Shown here piece by piece: positions 572-23,215 of a stretch of 33,048 nucleotides of DNA (position 1 is its first letter; each line of letters begins with the position of its first letter). Origin of the DNA: a candidate division WOR-1 bacterium RIFCSPLOWO2_02_FULL_46_20 (GTDB taxonomy: Bacteria > Margulisbacteria > WOR-1 > O2-12-FULL-45-9). The position numbers and the translations under genes were made by a program. The DNA is taken from NCBI GenBank assembly GCA_001771365.1, contig METP01000006.1, positions 1 through 33,048 of the forward strand. The letters run 5' to 3'. The notes under the pieces are model-generated. The model saw only the letters and a list, made by a program, of their open reading frames with translations. It did no database searches and was not told the origin of the DNA.

Positions 572-3500
572 TTAGAAATTGAGTGCCCCTTCGATACTCA
601 GCAGCGAAGCCAGAAAATTATCCGAAGTATTTGCCAGATTTTTGTAATCGACTGATTTATAAGAGCCGGTCAGGACAAAATTTGTTAAAACCGGGTTATC
701 AACTGGCATGGTAACGCTCAAACTTAAAGTTTGAGTAACTTTTTGTATGTTCAGGTCGGCGACTGAGCCGCCCTGGATTTCTCCTCCGTTTTTCTCGTCC
801 TGTTGATCAAAGGTCAGAGTCCCCCAGCCAGCTATTTGGTATGTTGCTTTGGTGTCCATGATGATTTTCTTTTTATCGGACGGGGATACTCTTAAGTCTT
901 TAATAACTCTCGTCGTTTTATGATTATAGGTTGTGCTGATGGCCAGAGGGGGGAGGGGATTGAGTGTTGTGCCGGCAGTAATGGTACGGTTGGTTGTTTC
1001 TGTGTCTATTTGGCTGGCGGACAGAGGGTGGTCATTTGCGTTTTTGTAATTTTCCAGAGCCAGCCCCAAACTGAGCGGGAGAATGGGAAAAGGAGAAAGA
1101 GTTGCTGTGTAATTTTGGGCGAAGGTGTTGGTGTTTGTTGTTACCTCTGGAGTTGTACCGGAGGGGGCAGTCTGGTTGTTATCTGAAAGTGTAAAGCGCG
1201 AATCCAAGCTAAAAATAGGGATGGAAATTGGTTTGTAAGTAATGTTATAGGTGTTGGCTTTGCCCGTTGTTCTATTGCTCAGACCGGTTTCTGGGACGGA
1301 ATCACTCTGTGAACTTGCCCAAGAACCGGAAAGCCAGGCCAGGGGTGAAAGATTAATGTTGGCAGAGGTCCTTTCGGTTTTGGGGTTGGTTCCGCCGACA
1401 ACAACAGTTAAGCTTTCCTGCCGGTTATGATCTAAAGAAGTTGTTAACATTGAAAAGGGGATTAGATCCATGTGATAAGTTTGGTTTTTTGTCGCAGAGA
1501 CATCACTGGCCGCGCCAAAACTTTTAACCAGAGTGTTTCCTTCATGGTTGAGCAAGCTGGCACGGGCAGTCCATTTTTGCAGCGGTCCGGTCGTGAGGTC
1601 GACTGACAAATTGTATGAAGTATCAATCGACTGAGTGTGAGCAGAGAGCGCCTCAGCTGTAGCTTCTGTGCTGCTTGATCTCAGGGCAACAGTTGTTGGC
1701 TCGCTTTTTTGATAGTCAAAACCGGCAGTTACTCTTTCAGTAAACTTTAAGTTCGCGTTGGCATGCAAATAATCGGTGCTTGTTTGTGAAAAGCTGTTGC
1801 TGTCACGCAGGGGGTCTGATTCGGAAACGCTTTTCTTTAAATCATACTTATGGGTAAGAGAAAAAATGCCGCGCTCTATGCCCAGAGGCGCAACGCTCAG
1901 GGCGTAAGAGTTTTGAACGGTATCGCCGCTATGGCTTGAGCCGCTGGCAAGCTCGTCCAGTGTCTGATAAAGACGATAGCTGAAATCGATCTGCGCTAGC
2001 CCCCGCGGGTTTATACCCAGGGTAACAGAATTGTCATAGCTGTTTTGATACTGAGTGCGAGAGGCCCCGATGGGATTATTGTTTTCTTTATACGAATAAT
2101 TAGTAAAGAAAGAATGAAAATTGGGCTTAAGTTTAACATTATATTCTTTATACTTTGAGCCGAAACCAATAGAGGTCACTCCCATGGGGGTAAAATCAGA
2201 ATCTATTTGTTTGGTGCTTCCGCCGACAGAGAGTATATCCCCAAAAAGTTTTGTTTCGGCCCCAAAACGAAACGCCCCCCCGCTCTTTACTGTTTGTCCG
2301 ACAACCAGCCCAACCTGAGACTGGAACTGATATTCCACGGAGATGGCATCCGAAGAAGAAGGGGTAAGATAATAAAGGGTGATTTGTCCCGGTTTTGTGT
2401 AGCTGACAAAATAATCCAGATCTCTGTTTAAAACTTTTGCGTTAACCGAGACCTTTTCACTGCCTTCAATAATATCTTGAGCTGATTTCAGTATATAACT
2501 TTTTGTGCCGCTACCACTAAAACTTTCAAGGGTTGTTTCGGCAATAGAGACCTGGTCTGTTTCGCTTTTGGCGTAAGCGGAATTTATCGTGAATAAATCG
2601 CCGATCTTAAAACTGCCATCAGCGCCAATTACCGAATGTGTAATATCGCCCCCTGCAAAAACTTGAGGCGGGACGTATTGATAGATTATCTGGTAATTTT
2701 TGGTGGCAGAAAGTTCATTATTAAACGTGATGGAAGGGGTGTCAGCGATATAATTAATAGAATATCCTTTATCTCCCGCGTTAGCCTCAAAGCTTGCATT
2801 GCGCGTGTAGGAAGCAATAACGGAAGAGCCCTGTTCCCAGACCTGGACTGTTTCTGTCCCAGGGGCAATATTGCGCACGTTCCTTAAATAATAAGGACCA
2901 CGGGTTCCATCTCCCAGGCCGGAATATTTCCCCACAACACTTTTATAATATGTATAAGTTATTATAATCGTGCTGGCGGCAGAAATGTTAAGCGGATTTA
3001 AAAACTTAATTGTTCCAGTTGTGTAGCCGTCCGAGGGATCCCTATAATCGGTTCTAAAAGCAAGCTGTGCCTCTGGAGTAACGGTAAATTTGCCGGTGGC
3101 AGAATCAAGCTGAGTGGTTGGAATAGAATAGTCAACTTCCCAGGTCAGTTCTACGCCATCGAGCCTGACCGTGAAATTGGCGCCGGATTCGGTGGTGGGT
3201 GTAATGGGGCGATTTTGTAAATAAGCGTGATAGTTATTATTAATGATGTCAGCGCCGCTAATGCTTTCGATGATTGAAGCCGTAACTGTTCCGACGCTCT
3301 TTTTAGCGGATTCCTTAAGGTAAGTCGTGCCAATTTTAAGTTCCTTGGGGAACTTTGAGTCTGGAATGGCCGGGATAGCGGTGACTTTATAGCGATAGGT
3401 AGCTTTGATTTGAGAGGTAGAGCTGATGACGACGCCAAAAACAAGCTCCCCAAAATTATTATCAATCGAGTATTCTAAATCACGGGTAAGCAATTTGCCG

Positions 3501-4672
3501 TCAACTTCAATTCTTTCGCTTTCGGCCACAACATTGTCGTGCGCTAGTTGGTAGGGCCCACGACTACCAATACCCAACAAAGACTCAGTGTTTTCCGCGG
3601 ATTCGTAATAATTGTATTCAATGCTTAATGGTTCTGAAGCTTGGGGAAGAAACCTGGTTAGGAGCTTTATGATGCCTTGATCATAGCGTATGATATAGTC
3701 TTCGTTTTTTTTAAGTGCTGACCCCCGAAATGTAAGCTTCTCGCTAAAATTAACAACAGGAGTGTGTTTTAAACGGTACTGTCCCGAGGCTTCTTCCTCT
3801 GCCGGCGTGGGTTCAGCGGAACCGACTGAAGCGGGGTACATCTCCCGCATAGCTCTTGTAACCGGCTCCATTATAGGTTGAGATTTTCCAAACTCTTCCG
3901 GATTAAAGGTGAATCTGGATTGGAAACCAAAGAAATCCCTTTTAGAAAGAGTGGGGAAGAAAAGATCAAGAACATTAGTGTACTCATAATTATAGCTGAT
4001 GATGTCGTCTGAGGTTAAGATACGGGTAAAAGTAATTTTGCCTTCAAAATAATTAATCGTGTAATCGATGTTGCGCCTTTGGGAAATATTATTCAAGGTT
4101 ATTGCTTCTGACCCGTCAAGAATCGAGCCATGCCCAAGGCTGTACGGGCCCTGGGTGTTATTCCCTTTTTGAGTCGAGAGTTTTTGGCTTTGACTTTTTA
4201 ATTTAGCGGAAGGGACAGTGATGATATCGTACCAGCCGTCTTTGGCTGTGAGCAAAACACCGTTGAGTTGTTTGGCCACAGAAGCAAATTCGTTGCCGGT
4301 GAAGCTGGCGGAGAAATCGCCGAAGGTCAATTCGTTTTCATGGTATTTAACTTTGACGTCATAGCGTTCTGGTGTTTCCGGCTGCTGTTCCAGATCATAT
4401 CCAACGGAGAGATTTTCTGAAAGTTGTCCCAGAATTTGCAGCTGCAGCCTCTCCTGCCATGGTCCTCCCGTGAAAGTTGGGGAATAACCGCCTAATTGGG
4501 ATAAGCCTGAAAAATAATTGCTGGCCGGGCTGACTCCGGCTTTTTTGAACTCCCATTTTTTATAGCCGCCGATTTCTACTTGAGGATAATCGCCTTGATT
4601 GGCAAGCGAAGGAAGGGACAAGAGAACAACCGAAACAGACAGAAAAAATATAAGTCTGCAAATTTTATTCAT
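572..4672 (-). CDS. Large outer-membrane beta-barrel-like protein with repeated beta modules
   Basis: 1366 residues. A signal peptide (basic MNKICR, hydrophobic residues 7-20, likely cleavage after SLAN) starts the protein. Residues ~110-145 contain an LTFGDFSASFTGNEFA stretch. Divergent modules of about 60-80 residues then recur near 170-232, 298-357, 371-430, ~590-665 and ~735-795, each with GPY.L, GSE.V.V, a short L.RD.DY segment and a closing I.Y.Y strand. The last ~550 residues are alternating polar/hydrophobic strands and the chain ends in Phe (EGALNF), as expected for an outer-membrane barrel. The modules recall SprA-like giant outer-membrane proteins, but this one is much shorter, so I do not name it SprA. 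Its ATG overlaps the fabF stop (TAATG), implying translational coupling to fatty-acid synthesis. No other lipoprotein or secretion partner is next to it. Outer-membrane location is fairly secure; function is unknown. Confidence 0.7.
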   Translation of the reverse strand: MNKICRLIFFLSVSVVLLSLPSLANQGDYPQVEIGGYKKWEFKKAGVSPASNYFSGLSQLGGYSPTFTGGPWQERLQLQILGQLSENLSVGYDLEQQPETPERYDVKVKYHENELTFGDFSASFTGNEFASVAKQLNGVLLTAKDGWYDIITVPSAKLKSQSQKLSTQKGNNTQGPYSLGHGSILDGSEAITLNNISQRRNIDYTINYFEGKITFTRILTSDDIISYNYEYTNVLDLFFPTLSKRDFFGFQSRFTFNPEEFGKSQPIMEPVTRAMREMYPASVGSAEPTPAEEEASGQYRLKHTPVVNFSEKLTFRGSALKKNEDYIIRYDQGIIKLLTRFLPQASEPLSIEYNYYESAENTESLLGIGSRGPYQLAHDNVVAESERIEVDGKLLTRDLEYSIDNNFGELVFGVVISSTSQIKATYRYKVTAIPAIPDSKFPKELKIGTTYLKESAKKSVGTVTASIIESISGADIINNNYHAYLQNRPITPTTESGANFTVRLDGVELTWEVDYSIPTTQLDSATGKFTVTPEAQLAFRTDYRDPSDGYTTGTIKFLNPLNISAASTIIITYTYYKSVVGKYSGLGDGTRGPYYLRNVRNIAPGTETVQVWEQGSSVIASYTRNASFEANAGDKGYSINYIADTPSITFNNELSATKNYQIIYQYVPPQVFAGGDITHSVIGADGSFKIGDLFTINSAYAKSETDQVSIAETTLESFSGSGTKSYILKSAQDIIEGSEKVSVNAKVLNRDLDYFVSYTKPGQITLYYLTPSSSDAISVEYQFQSQVGLVVGQTVKSGGAFRFGAETKLFGDILSVGGSTKQIDSDFTPMGVTSIGFGSKYKEYNVKLKPNFHSFFTNYSYKENNNPIGASRTQYQNSYDNSVTLGINPRGLAQIDFSYRLYQTLDELASGSSHSGDTVQNSYALSVAPLGIERGIFSLTHKYDLKKSVSESDPLRDSNSFSQTSTDYLHANANLKFTERVTAGFDYQKSEPTTVALRSSSTEATAEALSAHTQSIDTSYNLSVDLTTGPLQKWTARASLLNHEGNTLVKSFGAASDVSATKNQTYHMDLIPFSMLTTSLDHNRQESLTVVVGGTNPKTERTSANINLSPLAWLSGSWASSQSDSVPETGLSNRTTGKANTYNITYKPISIPIFSLDSRFTLSDNNQTAPSGTTPEVTTNTNTFAQNYTATLSPFPILPLSLGLALENYKNANDHPLSASQIDTETTNRTITAGTTLNPLPPLAISTTYNHKTTRVIKDLRVSPSDKKKIIMDTKATYQIAGWGTLTFDQQDEKNGGEIQGGSVADLNIQKVTQTLSLSVTMPVDNPVLTNFVLTGSYKSVDYKNLANTSDNFLASLLSIEGALNF

Positions 4673-10776: not shown

Positions 10777-10797
10777 ATCAGCAACAAAACTTTAGTA

Positions 10798-10826
10798 AGT
10801 ATAACATGAAAATATATGTGAGAAAA
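10798..10826 (-). promoter_or_regulatory. Putative promoter for etfB-etfA-fabD...
   Basis: On the minus strand, the extended -10 TGTTATACT (-10 hexamer at 10798-10803) lies 21 nt before the etfB ATG. A poor -35 (TTTTCT, 10821-10826) sits 17 nt further upstream. It is supported mainly by the TGn extension and by the need for a promoter after the divergent insertion. Confidence 0.4.
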
Positions 10827-10862
10827 GATGAAATTACCGCTGGTTGCTGACGAAAATAAGTC

Positions 10863-13211
10863 ATGGGTGCTCCATATTTTAATTACTTTTTTAACTACCA
10901 GAAGATTAGAAGCTTTCGGTACACTTATCACCCGGCGGAAGAAATAAGAGTCCAGCGGGAAATAAGCCGGCTTATGGCGGATCCCTTGCCGTTCGGAGGG
11001 AGGAAAGTCCCGCATATTTCTCAAAATGCTCAAGTGAGAATTATTGAAGAATTGACCTTGTCCCTGCGTCTTCCCAATTCACGCTTGCTTGAAGTCGCTC
11101 ATTTCAGGGGAAGGCTTCCCGGTTGGAAAAATCAACTTTTCGATCTTTATGCCTACTATCATGATTTAAGGCTGGAAAATGAAACAACTGGCAGAACAAT
11201 TGATTTTATGCTCGACTATCTTGGCATGCCAAGACTAGATAATCTGCCGCTATCAGAACAAATTACACTGCTTAAAGCGTACAGCTCCAGGATAGCCTGG
11301 GATACGGCAGGTAAAACAATCAAGAGACACCTGGTTGAACGGTTGGCAGAAGAAGTCGATATTCCCCACCCCCGCATGTTAACTGATGCGCACTTTCGAA
11401 CTATTGTTATCCCGGAGATAGGAACGACGCTTATTGGTCTTCATCAACGTTATCACAATAGAGCTTCCGGATCCGGGAGAACAATTGATAAGTTGCTGGA
11501 CGATATTGGAATTCCCTCTTATGAGAGTCAATCGTGGGAACAACAAGTCAGTTGCTTACGACAATGCAGAAAAATTTGCTGGGAGAGAATCCCGGCTTCT
11601 ACGCAACTAAAATTATTATCACTGCTGGGCGAGAGAATCCCACCTAAAAATGGGGTTTCCATCCCGCACCTCCGTGCGCTTACGAAGGATGCTTTTTGGA
11701 TAACCATTAAAGAAATGGACGGAGGTTTAACCGGGCTGCTTGGCAATTATGCCAGAAAAACCCCCAAAGATTATAAGGGGACTACCATTGACTATATGCT
11801 AGACTCTCTCGGTGTCGCAAAGTTTGAAGAACTCTCCTTTGAGCTGCAATGCCAATGTTTAAAGTATACCCGTAATTTGTTGTGGTCTAGGTTCCCCCGC
11901 ACTGCCATTCTCCGTCTTCTGGAAAGACTAAAAGAACTTGCCGGCCTGCCTCATCTAAGATTTCTTAGGGTGGAGCATTTCAGGACTATTAAAATCCCCG
12001 AAATTAATCAAACCATCGGGGGCCTTTATGTTTACGCTTGCGAAAAAATAGCCCCTCCTGACACCAAAGATAAAGACGTCGTTGATATCCTTTTGGACCA
12101 TTACGGAGTTGAGAAGATTTTCGAAATGTCGTTCAGGTTGCAGCTGCAACTACTTCAACTCCCAAAGCGTCCAAAGTGGAGCCGCATTCCTCCTGCCGTA
12201 ATTGCTTACGAATTAGATACGCTTAGGCGTACTGTTGGCGGTGGGAAATTAAGCTGGAAAGACTTCCAATTCCCTACTGAAGGAAGGCGGTTCGGCCTGT
12301 CGGGGCTTTATCAGCGTTTAAGAACCATTCGGCCCCCACAATCTGCCCATGAAAGGTTTAGCGATTGGGCGTTACGCGAATACAAATTGGCGCTAAGAGA
12401 ACAAATTATAGCGAAACGAAGACTGAACGCCGGCCTTTTAAGCGGGGAAGAAAAAGAGTTTTTACTGCAAAGGGCAAAACTCGGGAACGAAGAAGCCCTC
12501 GACCACTTGATTTTCTTTTATCAACCGCTGATAAAGGGGTGTGTTTGGATGGCTCTCGCCAGGTTCCCATCGCCGCGCCAAACTTTTGAGGAACTGCTTC
12601 AAGAAGGGGTGACATATTTCCCTAGATTGATCCAAAACTACGCCTTTCTTAAAGGAAGCTTTGAAACTTACGCGAGGAAATCTCTAACCCTATATTTACT
12701 TAGGATAATTATTTGTGACACCGGAGTTATCCATGTTCCAGCTCGTCATCTTGAAGAAATGCGCCAGCTCAAAAAAACTACGGGAATATTATGGCGGAGA
12801 CTGAACCGCGCGCCAAGTGAAACAGAGCTCGCCCAAGAGCTTAACATCCCCGTCGCAGAGATTCACGTGATGCGTTTATTTTTAACGGATGAGTTGTCGC
12901 TTCAGCAGCCAATAGGCACGGAGGAAGCTTTCGCTTTCGAAGATGTCATTGCGGACGAGCATGCGCCGCGGCAAGATGAGAGCTGGGATAAAAGCGAGCT
13001 CGAACAAAAATTGCGTCAGGCGATAGAAGGCTCCGGTCTTAATGCAAACGAGAAGCTGGTTATAGAGAAACGTTGGCTGGAAGAAAGGACGCTTGAAGAT
13101 GTGGGAGCAGAATTATTTCGCACGGGGGAAAGAATCCGTCAAATTGAGTCCGCCGCTCTTGAAAAAATACGCAATGGCCCTTACGCGGCCATTCTTAAAG
13201 GGTTGCTTTAG
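10863..13211 (+). CDS. Sigma-70-like factor fused to an N-terminal array of about five repeats
   Basis: 782 residues. Residues ~535-772 resemble primary/alternative sigma-70: region 2 (FEELLQEGVTYF, then GSFETYA), region 3 (HVPARHLEEM, APSETELAQELNIPVAEI, then LSLQQPIGTEEAFAFEDVI), and region 4 (NANEKLVIEKRWL, then RTLEDVGAE and ERIRQIESAALEKIRN). The aromatic WW pair that RpoD carries after TYAT in region 2.3/2.4 is replaced here (TYARKSL), so it is not a housekeeping sigma. Residues ~56-490 hold about five divergent ~95-residue repeats (56-123, 128-218, 222-318, 322-416, 420-490) with W.R.P, LPHLR.LT..HFR, GL...Y and TIDYMLD.LGV motifs. I do not recognise this repeat as a named domain. The first ATG after an in-frame stop is used; no Shine-Dalgarno is visible, and ATG 10974 is an alternative. 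It is transcribed against its neighbours and splits the acd-etf-fab cluster. Confidence 0.8.
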   Translation: MGAPYFNYFFNYQKIRSFRYTYHPAEEIRVQREISRLMADPLPFGGRKVPHISQNAQVRIIEELTLSLRLPNSRLLEVAHFRGRLPGWKNQLFDLYAYYHDLRLENETTGRTIDFMLDYLGMPRLDNLPLSEQITLLKAYSSRIAWDTAGKTIKRHLVERLAEEVDIPHPRMLTDAHFRTIVIPEIGTTLIGLHQRYHNRASGSGRTIDKLLDDIGIPSYESQSWEQQVSCLRQCRKICWERIPASTQLKLLSLLGERIPPKNGVSIPHLRALTKDAFWITIKEMDGGLTGLLGNYARKTPKDYKGTTIDYMLDSLGVAKFEELSFELQCQCLKYTRNLLWSRFPRTAILRLLERLKELAGLPHLRFLRVEHFRTIKIPEINQTIGGLYVYACEKIAPPDTKDKDVVDILLDHYGVEKIFEMSFRLQLQLLQLPKRPKWSRIPPAVIAYELDTLRRTVGGGKLSWKDFQFPTEGRRFGLSGLYQRLRTIRPPQSAHERFSDWALREYKLALREQIIAKRRLNAGLLSGEEKEFLLQRAKLGNEEALDHLIFFYQPLIKGCVWMALARFPSPRQTFEELLQEGVTYFPRLIQNYAFLKGSFETYARKSLTLYLLRIIICDTGVIHVPARHLEEMRQLKKTTGILWRRLNRAPSETELAQELNIPVAEIHVMRLFLTDELSLQQPIGTEEAFAFEDVIADEHAPRQDESWDKSELEQKLRQAIEGSGLNANEKLVIEKRWLEERTLEDVGAELFRTGERIRQIESAALEKIRNGPYAAILKGLL

Positions 13212-13213
13212 CC

Positions 13214-13244
13214 CTACCTCTTACTGACGCTCTCTTTAATCAAA
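13214..13244. repeat. Relic copy of the acd 3' end (direct repeat, copy 1)
   Basis: 31 bp that match 14476-14506 at 28 positions (differences at 13218, 13226 and 13241). Read on the minus strand it encodes LIKESVSKR then TAG, versus LIKESVSKK then TAG at the end of acd. The copy contains the TGA stop of the ATPase gene on the same strand in another frame. The two copies bracket the ATPase gene exactly. Confidence 0.85.
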
Positions 13245-14382
13245 TTATTTTCCCGGCCCAGAGCTTTTCCAAGAATTCCTGCCACGGAAGAATGTGAATT
13301 CCCGAGGCCAACCGGGGTCTGGGATCAAGAGAAACGACAATGTTATGCCTTGTTTTATATTCCTCGCTAAAGGCTTTGAGCCCTCCGAGATGTTGCGCGC
13401 CAACATTTTTTGAGGACTTGGCTTCCAGCGCCACCTCATGTTCCCCGAGGATAAAATCGACTTCGAGCTGAGAGGTTGTATGCCAGTAATAAATGGGGAA
13501 ATTCTTGCCGGAGTAATGGCTGTAAGCAAAAATCTCCTGGTAGATATAATGTTCAAAAGCCTTACCGAAAGATTCCCCCCCGGCCTGGATTTCGCCGCGC
13601 TTTAACAGGAAATTTACCAGTCCCAGGTCGAAATAATAAAATTTTGGCGCGTGCAGGACGCGGCGCTTTGGGCGTTTCCGGTAAGAAGGGACATAGCGGC
13701 CAACCAGGGTGTCAACAAGGATTTGAAAGTATTCTTTAACAGTTGGAGAACTAACGCCGCATTCTCGGGCAATGTTGGAATAATTCACGATTTCACCGTT
13801 GCTAAAAGCCGCAGCCTGCAAAAAATCGCCAAAAGCGGGAATGCTCCTGCCGGCCGCTTCGGCGGCAATTTCTTCTTTAAGATATTCGCCAACATAGGCC
13901 TGAAGCAAAGGATACGAATTTTTAGCCAAATAGTGGCGGGGAAGGAGCCCATGATTTAAGGCGCGAACCAAGTCAAAATCAGGAATTTCCTGGGCTACCA
14001 GAGGGAGCAATTCGTAGCGCAGGGCGCGCCCGCCGAGAAGGTTCCCTTTTTTGCGTTTTAACTTACGCGGGCTTGAACCGCACATGATGAATTGGAACCC
14101 ATGATTAACCGTGAGCCAATGAATTTCATTTAAAAGCTTCGGTATCAATTGGATTTCATCGATGACTACCGGAGTTTTTAAGGAGGGGCGGAGGAGCAGA
14201 TCCTCGCGCAGCAGCTGGGGCTGGCGGCTAAGCCGCTCAAAGACTTCGGAGAGCAAGAGGTCATAATAAGGCGCGTGAGAAAAAAGCTCTTTTAAGAGGG
14301 TGCTTTTCCCTGTTTGCCGCGCCCCCCAGAAAAAACAGCTTTCTTTGCCCAGATGGATAAATTTTTGCAGGCGAGAGAACAT
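13240..14382 (-). CDS. AAA_14 / DUF4143 family ATPase
   Basis: 380 residues. AAA+ P-loop ATPase of the type usually annotated 'ATP-binding protein, AAA_14 and DUF4143 domains'. Walker A GARQTGKST is at 20-28, Walker B VVIDEIQ at 72-78, and a sensor-like FIMCGSSPRKLK stretch at 99-110. A winged-helix-like segment (EIVNYSNIARECGVSSPTVK) lies near 197-216. The C-terminal DUF4143 part has a PD-(D/E)XK-like pattern, EVD 307-309 and EAK 320-322. The cellular role of the family is not established; members are frequent, mobile and often present in many copies in anaerobes. It has its own good promoter and lies between imperfect direct repeats of the acd 3' end, so it is best read as an acquired cassette inside the fatty-acid locus. 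Convergent with the sigma-like gene. Confidence 0.9.
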   Translation of the reverse strand: MFSRLQKFIHLGKESCFFWGARQTGKSTLLKELFSHAPYYDLLLSEVFERLSRQPQLLREDLLLRPSLKTPVVIDEIQLIPKLLNEIHWLTVNHGFQFIMCGSSPRKLKRKKGNLLGGRALRYELLPLVAQEIPDFDLVRALNHGLLPRHYLAKNSYPLLQAYVGEYLKEEIAAEAAGRSIPAFGDFLQAAAFSNGEIVNYSNIARECGVSSPTVKEYFQILVDTLVGRYVPSYRKRPKRRVLHAPKFYYFDLGLVNFLLKRGEIQAGGESFGKAFEHYIYQEIFAYSHYSGKNFPIYYWHTTSQLEVDFILGEHEVALEAKSSKNVGAQHLGGLKAFSEEYKTRHNIVVSLDPRPRLASGIHILPWQEFLEKLWAGKII

Positions 14383-20539: not shown

Positions 20540-23215
20540 CTAATAAATAAGATAGCTTTGGGCCTGAAGTGCTCTGCCGCCATTTGAGTAGTCTTCCCAG
20601 AAGAGGTAAAGGCGATTGTTGTTTATATCGCTTATAATCTGTGGGACTCTGGCTCCATCTCTAGTCTGATTTTTAATTCCGTTTGCGCCCCAGAGCGCCA
20701 GTCCCTGGCTGCTTAATTGTTGCATAAAAACCTCATAATAGTTGCCGCTGCGGTAATCTTCCCAGGCAATAATTGCGCTGCCATTTTTCCAGGAGGCAGC
20801 TTGAAGCGCATACTGTGTGTGAGGAATTAAAGCCACGGGTACCCCGTCTTTTTGCCAGAGAAGTTTTCCTTGTGGCGAAAAAGCGGCGGCATAGATGTCC
20901 CAGTTACCGTAGCGATAATCTTCCCAGGCTATGATTCCGTTGTTGCCGAATTGGCCATTTTGTTGAGTACGGCTTAGTTGATTGATGGGGATGCCATCTG
21001 AGGCCCAGAGAGAGCGCCCTTTTTTGTCCAAGCGTTGGGCATAAATGTCGTAGCTGCCTCCCGCCTTATCTGTCCAGGCAATAATTGATCCTCCAGCACC
21101 ATCCCCGATAATTTTAGGGGCACGCTGAACATCAGGCGCAGCGCATATTTTTTCCGCCGTTTCTTTCCAGACAACATGTCCATTTGCGGCAATCCTCTGG
21201 GCGTAAATATCCGGGTTTCTGTTGCTGCTGCGATAGTCTGTCCAGGCCAGAATGGCACCTTTTTGGCCATCGGAAATCATGGTGATGTCCGTTTGATCCC
21301 CATTGGCAGAGATAACTACTTTACCTTTTTCATACCAGACCAGCGTCCCTTTCGCAGATACCCTCTGAGCATATATGTCCTGCAGGCTTAAAACATCACG
21401 GTTATCTTCCCAGGCAATAATTGCGCCACCAGCGCCATCGGAGACCATGAGCGGTTTGGTTTGTGAAGACTTAACATTTACGACGGAGAGAGTGCCGGCC
21501 CAAACCTTTTCGCCGCTAGAGCTTAGGTGCTGGGCTTGAATAGAAGGAAAATCTTTATTGCTGTTCTCTTGCCAGCAGATGATCGCTCCACCTGCTCCAT
21601 CTGCAACAATTTGAGGGTTGGATTGATTAGCTGAAACCTTCGCAACTGCGATGCCATTGGAACCCCACGATAGATTTCCTGACACATCTATTTTTTGCGC
21701 GTAAATATTAAAATAGCCGGAGCGGGCATCTTCGAAAACGACAACGATGCTTCCATTTTTACTAAGCGCCAACTGGGCATTTTGTTGAATAACAGAACCC
21801 TGGGCGGAACATATGGTGACCTCTGCTGCGTTCCAAATGGGGGCTCCGTTAGCTGAGAGTGCCTGCGCAAAAATATCGTTGTTGCCAGATCGACTGTCCT
21901 CCCAGGCAATAACTACGTTGCCCTGAGGCGTGCCAACGGCCGCAGCTGATTTTTGGGATTCTCGTGCCGCGACAATTGGCATGTCGTTTTCCCAAAGGGT
22001 TGTTCCCACGCCATTTATTTTTTTAGCGTAGAGGTCAATGCTGCCTGATCGATCGTCTTCCCAGATAATAATCCAGGAGTTACTTGCCCCGCTTAGGATT
22101 CTGGGATTTTCTTGCGTGCCGTGCGCTTTAACTATTGGTTTCCCGTTGTCCTGCCAGGCAATGCTCCCATTTCTATAAATTCTTTGGCCGTAAATATCAC
22201 TTTTTATTTCACGTTGATCAGTCCAGACAATAATCGCGCCATCTTCTCCATCGGATGAAAGCTTTGGGTGTTCCTGAGCGTAAGGGAATGAACAGGCAGA
22301 AATCCCGTCGGCACCCCAAAGAAACTTGCCGTTGGCCTCTATCTTTTGGGCGTAAATGTCCTGATTGCCTGAGCGTGAATCTTGCCAGGTGATGATCACT
22401 CCATCAGCCACATTTAGGATGTCCGGGTTCTCTTGATTGTTGGGAGCGGAACAAACCGTCAGGCCATCTTTCCCCCAAAGAGTATTCCCAGAAGAATCAA
22501 TCCGTTGCGCATAGATGTTGTTGTCCGAGGAGCTTGCTCTGCCGTCAGTCCAGGCAATGTACGCTCCGCCGGCATTGTCGCCGACAATTCGTGGATACCA
22601 TTGGGTACCAGAAGCGGTTGAAATTGGCACGCCGTCTGCTGGCCAGAGAGTGGTGCCGCCGGCATTAATTCTTTGGGCATAAATGTCTTCTCCGGTACCG
22701 CCGCGATAATCATGCCAGGCGATGATTGCCCCTCCGCTCCCGTCAGAAATTATTTGTGGAGCAAATTGACCAGCTGTTGCGGAACAAACTACCGCACCAT
22801 TTTTTCCCCATAAAGCGGTGCCGGCATAATTTATATGCTGGGCATGAATGTCTGAGTTTTCGTTAGTATAATCCTGCCAGACAATAATGGCTCCGCCTGC
22901 CCCATCGCTGGTTATTTCAGGAAAATTTTGGTTGCCGGAAGAAAGACAAGCGGCAAGACCGTTTTGAGCCCACACCGGGCTGCCGGAACTGTTAATTTTT
23001 TGCACATAAATGTCGAAGTATCCGGCGCGCCCGTCTTCCCAGGCAATAATATTACCGCCGTAGTCATCGTTAATAATTTTTGGGTTTTGTTGTGTGGCGT
23101 TACCCTGAGTGTCGTTAACCACTGTGCCGTAGGTGGACCAGAGAGGTTTAGGCGCATTTTCTGCATAGATAGGACTGGTCAGTAACAGGAAAATTAAAAT
23201 GTAAATGGTTTTCAT
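20540..23215 (-). CDS. Secreted repeat protein, 16 WEDxR..DIYAQ repeats, probable beta-propeller
   Basis: 891 residues. A signal peptide (MKTIYILIFLLLTSPIYA) is followed by 16 repeats of about 50 residues. The repeat pattern is GGAIIAW(E/Q/T)D.R.G..DIYAQ(R/K)I...G...W...G, then a variable C/A-rich linker ending in ...P.I..DG. The last repeat is shortened and ends the protein. Each unit looks like one four-stranded blade, so one or two propellers are plausible; that is inference. No catalytic motif or C-terminal sorting domain is visible. The ATG overlaps the TGA of the upstream SMC gene (ATGA), so it should be co-transcribed with it although the two functions have no known link. Frequent acidic D/E-D-R motifs could bind cations. 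Function unknown; extracytoplasmic location is likely. Confidence 0.85.
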   Translation of the reverse strand: MKTIYILIFLLLTSPIYAENAPKPLWSTYGTVVNDTQGNATQQNPKIINDDYGGNIIAWEDGRAGYFDIYVQKINSSGSPVWAQNGLAACLSSGNQNFPEITSDGAGGAIIVWQDYTNENSDIHAQHINYAGTALWGKNGAVVCSATAGQFAPQIISDGSGGAIIAWHDYRGGTGEDIYAQRINAGGTTLWPADGVPISTASGTQWYPRIVGDNAGGAYIAWTDGRASSSDNNIYAQRIDSSGNTLWGKDGLTVCSAPNNQENPDILNVADGVIITWQDSRSGNQDIYAQKIEANGKFLWGADGISACSFPYAQEHPKLSSDGEDGAIIVWTDQREIKSDIYGQRIYRNGSIAWQDNGKPIVKAHGTQENPRILSGASNSWIIIWEDDRSGSIDLYAKKINGVGTTLWENDMPIVAARESQKSAAAVGTPQGNVVIAWEDSRSGNNDIFAQALSANGAPIWNAAEVTICSAQGSVIQQNAQLALSKNGSIVVVFEDARSGYFNIYAQKIDVSGNLSWGSNGIAVAKVSANQSNPQIVADGAGGAIICWQENSNKDFPSIQAQHLSSSGEKVWAGTLSVVNVKSSQTKPLMVSDGAGGAIIAWEDNRDVLSLQDIYAQRVSAKGTLVWYEKGKVVISANGDQTDITMISDGQKGAILAWTDYRSSNRNPDIYAQRIAANGHVVWKETAEKICAAPDVQRAPKIIGDGAGGSIIAWTDKAGGSYDIYAQRLDKKGRSLWASDGIPINQLSRTQQNGQFGNNGIIAWEDYRYGNWDIYAAAFSPQGKLLWQKDGVPVALIPHTQYALQAASWKNGSAIIAWEDYRSGNYYEVFMQQLSSQGLALWGANGIKNQTRDGARVPQIISDINNNRLYLFWEDYSNGGRALQAQSYLIY

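Follow-up and report, generated by a model that had tools for sequence, protein, structure and literature searches.

Introduction

Sigma-70 factors with fused domains are already known, ECF41 and MzaA being examples. ECF sigma factors have no region 3, and in ECF41 the extra domain is located at the C-terminus. The domain fused to the sigma factor in ECF41 proteins is a regulatory one (PMC3426412). The anti-phage system MZA also includes a sigma factor (PMC9523054). Among the hallmarks of the primary (group 1) sigma factors, the tryptophan dyad W433/W434 has been tied to promoter unwinding (PMC6411747) and residues Q437 and T440 to promoter position -12 (PMC2613000). The wedge activity of sigma factors follows the order WW > HW > QR (PMC10216364).

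In this work we analyzed a 33,048-nt stretch of DNA (the window) from a candidate division WOR-1 bacterium and found that its protein P0001 (782 aa) is a sigma-70-type factor that bears copies of a new domain family. Regions 1.2 to 4 of P0001 can be aligned with RpoD/SigA along some 250 residues, with 31-32% identity, and the QEG motif of region 2.2, the region 3 helix and the region 4.2 recognition helix are all present. P0001 differs from RpoD/SigA in the absence of the WW dyad, Q437 and T440, in a 4-residue insertion in region 2.1, and in four to five extra N-terminal domains. MzaA, too, is long and has its sigma-70 module at the C-terminus after an extension of ~500 residues, but only the sigma parts match (P0001 575-781 against MzaA 502-713 of 726); the 53 bits of this match do not reach the model cut-off of 800 bits, and by the Pfam names of the flanking genes there is no MZA-like gene set in the window. 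P0001 resembles ECF41 as an alternative sigma factor with an extra domain, and most ECF sigma factors also lack the Trp dyad (PMC6411747), but P0001 has region 3 and its array is N-terminal. SF1-type helicases of genomes G029 and G026 carry the same repeat N-terminally, in five and two copies, respectively; there the effector is an AAA_11/AAA_12 helicase (weak in G026) instead of a sigma module.

Results

Reading frame and layout of P0001

P0001 is encoded by an intact frame of 782 codons with an ATG start. An in-frame TAA is located directly upstream of the first ATG, and no alternative start codon is found before the conserved residue 19; the first ATG is the sole possible start. The features of the locus are as follows.

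10863..13211, (+), repeat-array sigma factor P0001, 782 aa (ORF, sigma models, repeats)
10917..11006, (+), N-terminal segment, aa 19-48, conserved before the first repeat in the 402-aa G028 relative (alignment)
11007..11291, (+), repeat 1, aa 49-143, aligns with the one repeat copy in the G028 sigma factor
11292..11573, (+), repeat 2, aa 144-237 (window 11289-11579 modelled, pLDDT 91.9)
11574..11876, (+), repeat 3, aa 238-338
11877..12170, (+), repeat 4, aa 339-436
12171..12407, (+), repeat 5, degenerate, with a linker helix, aa 437-515 (BLASTP match to repeat 4 at E = 3e-4)
12408..13208, (+), sigma-70 module, aa 516-782 (RpoD C-terminal model 9e-28, fold match to sigma factors)
12582..12728, (+), region 2.2-2.4, diverged, aa 574-622 (QEG present, K606-S607 in place of WW, Leu at the Q437 and T440 positions)
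12753..12980, (+), sigma region 3, aa 631-706 (Sigma70_r3 2.2e-12)
13035..13175, (+), sigma region 4, aa 725-771, including the recognition helix TGERIRQIE (Sigma70_r4 2.2e-12)
10777..10862, no strand, divergent intergenic region of 86 bp shared with etfB, no consensus sigma-70 promoter
13240..14382, (-), AAA_14/DUF4143 ATPase, in the same insertion as P0001 (association only)

The N-terminal repeat array

The array (aa 49-515) is built from ~95-residue repeats with the consensus I.W..[IV]P..TQ..L.E.LA.k.G.P...L...HF...I.L.EI...L.GLY.YY......G..vIDFML..LGI...eeLs...Q...iK. The initial annotation had counted about five copies. Four of these are clear, matching one another pairwise by BLASTP at E-values from 2e-6 to 3e-14; the fifth is weak and degenerate, matches repeat 4 only, and lies near noise for the repeat HMM. 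When an HMM built from repeats 1 to 4 alone was run on a set of six proteins, it matched a 1264-aa G029 protein (five copies, 2e-52), the 402-aa G028 protein (one copy, 5e-16) and an 857-aa G026 protein (two copies, 2e-8). The repeats are therefore not a chance pattern, and the HMM search of related genomes that had been suggested at the outset places them in three other genomes of the class. The copies found by this HMM scored 1e-25 to 1e-35 in the genome-wide profile search.

With the repeat profile we searched 31 genomes of the class, 74 of the phylum and a set of 383 relatives that extends into other phyla. At E <= 0.001 the repeat is present in 4 of the 383 genomes, all of the same class, and no further copy was found at this threshold in two other phyla (8 and 125 genomes); it is absent from the nine same-family genomes searched. 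Weaker matches in the phylum have E-values of 0.03-0.6. One weak match (G068:C1:31212-31403) lies within a 24,444-aa open frame for a giant protein of this phylum. The repeat-bearing effector proteins have the following architectures.

P0001, source genome, 782 aa: four to five repeats and a sigma module
G028, 402 aa: one repeat and a sigma module
G029 (G029:C44), 1264 aa: five repeats and an AAA_11/AAA_12 SF1 helicase
G026 (G026:C58), 857 aa: two repeats and a weakly AAA_30-like part

The helicase parts of the G026 and G029 proteins are related (28% identity, E = 4e-17; the G026 helicase match is weak), and within the class this helicase part is found only in these two repeat-bearing proteins. 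Read by eye, the G026 protein (L026:4202-6775) has the Walker A sequence GPAWSGKT, and its motif II is EN in place of DE, so its ATPase activity may have been lost. G029 also carries four adjacent paralogous genes on G029:C116 (L044:4492-8417) that look membrane-protein-like by their hydrophobic stretches; two of them contain one diverged repeat each, and one has an apparently broken copy. These single repeats were added by the profile, beyond the HMM made from P0001 only. Since the repeat is also carried by helicases and membrane-protein-like genes, its sequence distribution marks it as a mobile module that is not peculiar to sigma factors. A viral origin was considered and rejected: viral contigs scanned with the repeats, the sigma part, the 402-aa relative and the helicase contain no relative, and phage records match the sigma part of P0001 only. 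Plasmids gave no match to the G029 repeat array, and contigs of named genomes gave only generic sigma matches to P0001.

Net charge is zero or positive in all 11 repeat copies. It is small, and the repeats are only mildly basic; the most basic unit of P0001 is the degenerate repeat 5 (net +7). The repeat arrays have a pI of 9.2-9.5 against 5.7 for the sigma module. The most conserved positions form the hydrophobic core, and the conserved polar positions E43, D67 and Q86 are not basic.

Predicted fold of the repeat

An AlphaFold2 model of one repeat, based on an alignment of 11 sequences, is all-helical with five helices (mean pLDDT 91.9, pTM 0.81). Foldseek searches with this model found nothing below E 1.7 in the PDB (TM <= 0.34) and nothing below E 3.2 in a viral structure library. 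The repeat profile matched PDB sequences only from 0.0028 upward; these matches, an esterase and a COP9 subunit, were dismissed as incidental (best-domain E-values 0.25 or worse). No known DNA-binding fold was matched. Kinship with helicase-associated (HA) domains, which the initial annotation had raised, finds no backing: none of the 11 copies matches the Pfam HA model at E <= 10, and none belongs to a meaningful Pfam family. One G029 copy region has a weak match (9e-4, below the cut-off) to the RNA-binding family Pfg27, to which we gave no weight. No described family in Pfam, PDB, PHROGs or PADLOC matches the repeat, including any already described in sigma factors, and neither the open-licence literature searched nor the family models hold a description of an N-terminal array of this kind on a sigma factor, in agreement with the initial impression of novelty. 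The repeat is thus best described as a new domain family whose fold is confidently predicted and apparently unmatched. In the full-length model of P0001 (nine sequences, pLDDT 68, pTM 0.39) the helical pattern is repeated four times; the model is poor at 417-500 and its overall domain arrangement is not reliable.

The sigma-70 module

Regions 3 and 4 of P0001 exceed the Pfam cut-offs (both 2.2e-12), the RpoD C-terminal model covers aa 574-779 (9e-28), and solved SigA chains match the sequence with values up to 1e-20. In a fold search the sigma part of the full-length model matched SigA and RpoS structures with a probability of 1.00, so the C-terminal part is predicted to adopt the sigma fold expected of it. 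Regions 2-4 had all been called clear; this holds for regions 3 and 4, but Pfam's model for region 2 gives no match in P0001 even at E <= 1. The RpoD, RpoS and FliA models do run through region 2, and the Pfam model reaches 3e-4 on the 402-aa G028 relative. In comparison with the genome's own RpoD, a normal protein encoded elsewhere (G000:C3:1439-2188), identity is 7/23 in region 2.2, with QEG kept, 4/9 in 2.3, 2/14 in 2.4 (the least conserved), 9/28 in 3.0 and 17/30 in 4.2 (the best conserved).

As the initial annotation had noticed, the WW pair is missing. The equivalents of W433-W434 are K606-S607 in P0001 and R-S in the G028 relative; the Q437 position is Leu in both, and the T440 position is Leu in P0001 and Ile in G028. 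P0001 thus lacks the group 1 hallmarks, and it also falls outside the ECF (group 4) sigma factors, which are defined by the absence of region 3. By its sequence P0001 is probably a sigma-70-type protein of the alternative rather than the primary kind. Because the WW dyad, Q437 and T440 are lost, we infer that it should rely less on the standard -10 element.

Besides one RpoD per genome, only three proteins of the class pass the region 3 cut-off, namely P0001, the G028 protein and a 945-aa G021 protein (L024:4667-7504, G021:C21), and 2 of the 3 bear the repeat. The G021 protein, another oversized one-off sigma protein of the class, has its sigma-70 module behind ~690 uncharacterized, non-repeat residues. 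A 554-aa protein (L025:4186-5850, G024:C27) combines a diverged sigma region 4 with a C-terminal XRE-type helix-turn-helix (HTH_3).

A relative in another family of the class

The G028 protein comes from a different family of the class and is 35% identical to P0001; a tblastn match at 15-125, also 35%, covers the first-repeat region of P0001. The two proteins have in common 42 residues, the R-x-S-L replacement around the WW dyad among them, that are missing from five RpoDs. In a tree they group with 100/94 support, apart from the RpoDs and on very long branches. This grouping may be affected by long-branch attraction, but the kinship is independently supported by the first repeat and the N-terminal segment, which both proteins share. 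In view of the 42 common residues and the tree support, these changes have probably been kept by selection.

Genomic neighborhood

The sister genomes G003 and G009 have the gene order XerD-PlsX-FabH-acyl-CoA dehydrogenase-EtfB, with the dehydrogenase directly beside EtfB. In the source genome P0001 and the DUF4143/AAA_14 ATPase sit between these two genes, and P0001 interrupts an operon that is contiguous in G003 and G009. The dehydrogenase-EtfB junction looks like a spot of repeated gene gain or insertion, since G004 has other genes there and DUF4143 ATPases lie close to EtfB in G006 and G001. Several genomes of the family have DUF4143/AAA_14 ATPases adjacent to etfB or close by (window 13240-14382; L090, L091). 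P0001 has the same GC and GC3 as its neighbors, which gives no sign of a recent import. The gene is convergent with the ATPase and divergent from etfB over 86 bp. This intergenic region (10777..10862) gave no match to a consensus sigma-70 promoter, and regulation from it was discarded as a candidate, the only other signal being an 8-nt inverted repeat with a wide spacer, which is near chance expectation. By Pfam the flanking genes encode fatty-acid synthesis, ETF, DUF4143 ATPase, XerD, SMC/RecN-like and histidine kinase proteins. Two large ORFs of the window, 572-4672 (1366 aa) and 20540-23215 (891 aa), have no Pfam match over the cut-off. No partner gene common to the P0001 and G028 neighborhoods was seen.

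Discussion

We propose tentatively, at a little under an even chance, that P0001 is an alternative sigma-70 factor, accessory and lineage-specific, and that its array anchors RNA polymerase on nucleic acid. To judge from conserved residues, core RNA polymerase would be bound through the QEG surface of region 2.2 and a -35-like element would be read through region 4.2. Since region 2.3/2.4 has lost the residues for reading -12 and for wedging the strands apart, the sigma module alone would select and open ordinary promoters poorly. The array of five-helix units would most likely serve as a long arm for binding nucleic acid, keeping the holoenzyme at certain sites and thereby supplying the specificity and affinity lost from region 2. 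The repeat recurs on SF1 helicases and sigma factors, which means that two kinds of nucleic-acid machine have been joined to one module, and this module is never acidic; an arm for nucleic acid is therefore the simplest reading. Against it count the small net charge, the conservation of the hydrophobic core, the lack of a match to any known DNA-binding fold, and the single repeats in the G029 membrane-protein-like genes, which fit the binding of proteins or signals equally well. Most ECF sigma factors lack the WW dyad and function without any such arm (PMC6411747). In addition, the long array must be dispensable for the common function, because the 402-aa G028 relative manages with one repeat. 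It is quite improbable that the unit is a new nucleic-acid-binding solenoid repeat which, in tandem, brings whole enzymes (RNA polymerase by way of a sigma factor, and SF1 helicases) to chosen sites, with promoter choice set by the array and not by region 2.

Tandem helical solenoids commonly bind proteins, and the array could instead be a scaffold or sensor for proteins or ligands that controls when the sigma module can bind polymerase, either as a built-in anti-sigma factor or as a docking platform for a partner that the helicases and membrane proteins would also use. The repeats in the membrane-protein-like paralogues, the precedent of ECF41 and the hydrophobic conservation and the non-basic polar positions E43, D67 and Q86 would suit such a role. 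The recurrent fusion to two kinds of nucleic-acid enzyme and the uniformly non-negative charge favor nucleic acid, and the neighborhoods of the two repeat-sigmas offer no shared partner gene; we consider a scaffold or sensor rather unlikely, yet the leading alternative.

A conflict or defence-type sigma factor similar to MzaA, whose large N-terminal part recognizes invading nucleic acid or protein, is improbable. It is suggested by the match of the MzaA model (726 positions, C-terminal sigma module) to the sigma part of P0001, by the sigma factor among the MZA components (PMC9523054), by the patchy distribution (4/383 genomes), by the one-off oversized sigma proteins in sister genomes and the insertion of P0001 into a conserved operon, and by a match of the helicase part to Mokosh MkoA. 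The MzaA and MkoA matches, however, are limited to the generic sigma region and the generic helicase domain, the annotated neighbors are fatty-acid, ETF and recombinase genes instead of an MZA-like set, and the base composition is that of the host. Most improbable of all is a decaying, non-functional fusion gene that drifts fast and was kept by chance in one assembly. The very long branches of both repeat-sigmas, the absence from nine same-family genomes and the weak fifth repeat would be expected of such a gene, but the frame is intact over 782 codons, four repeats are well kept, and GC and GC3 are ambient. Moreover, a diverged relative in a different family has the same architecture and shared derived residues; the recurrence of this architecture and of the residue losses in two families argues against random fusion or decay.

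If the array of P0001 does target polymerase, this bacterial sigma factor would owe its choice of sites to an added solenoid and not to -10 recognition, and in the repeat a new recognition module would be moving between enzymes. Even if the array is a sensor, the repeat is an unnamed domain family that sigma factors, helicases and membrane-like proteins have in common in a poorly studied class.
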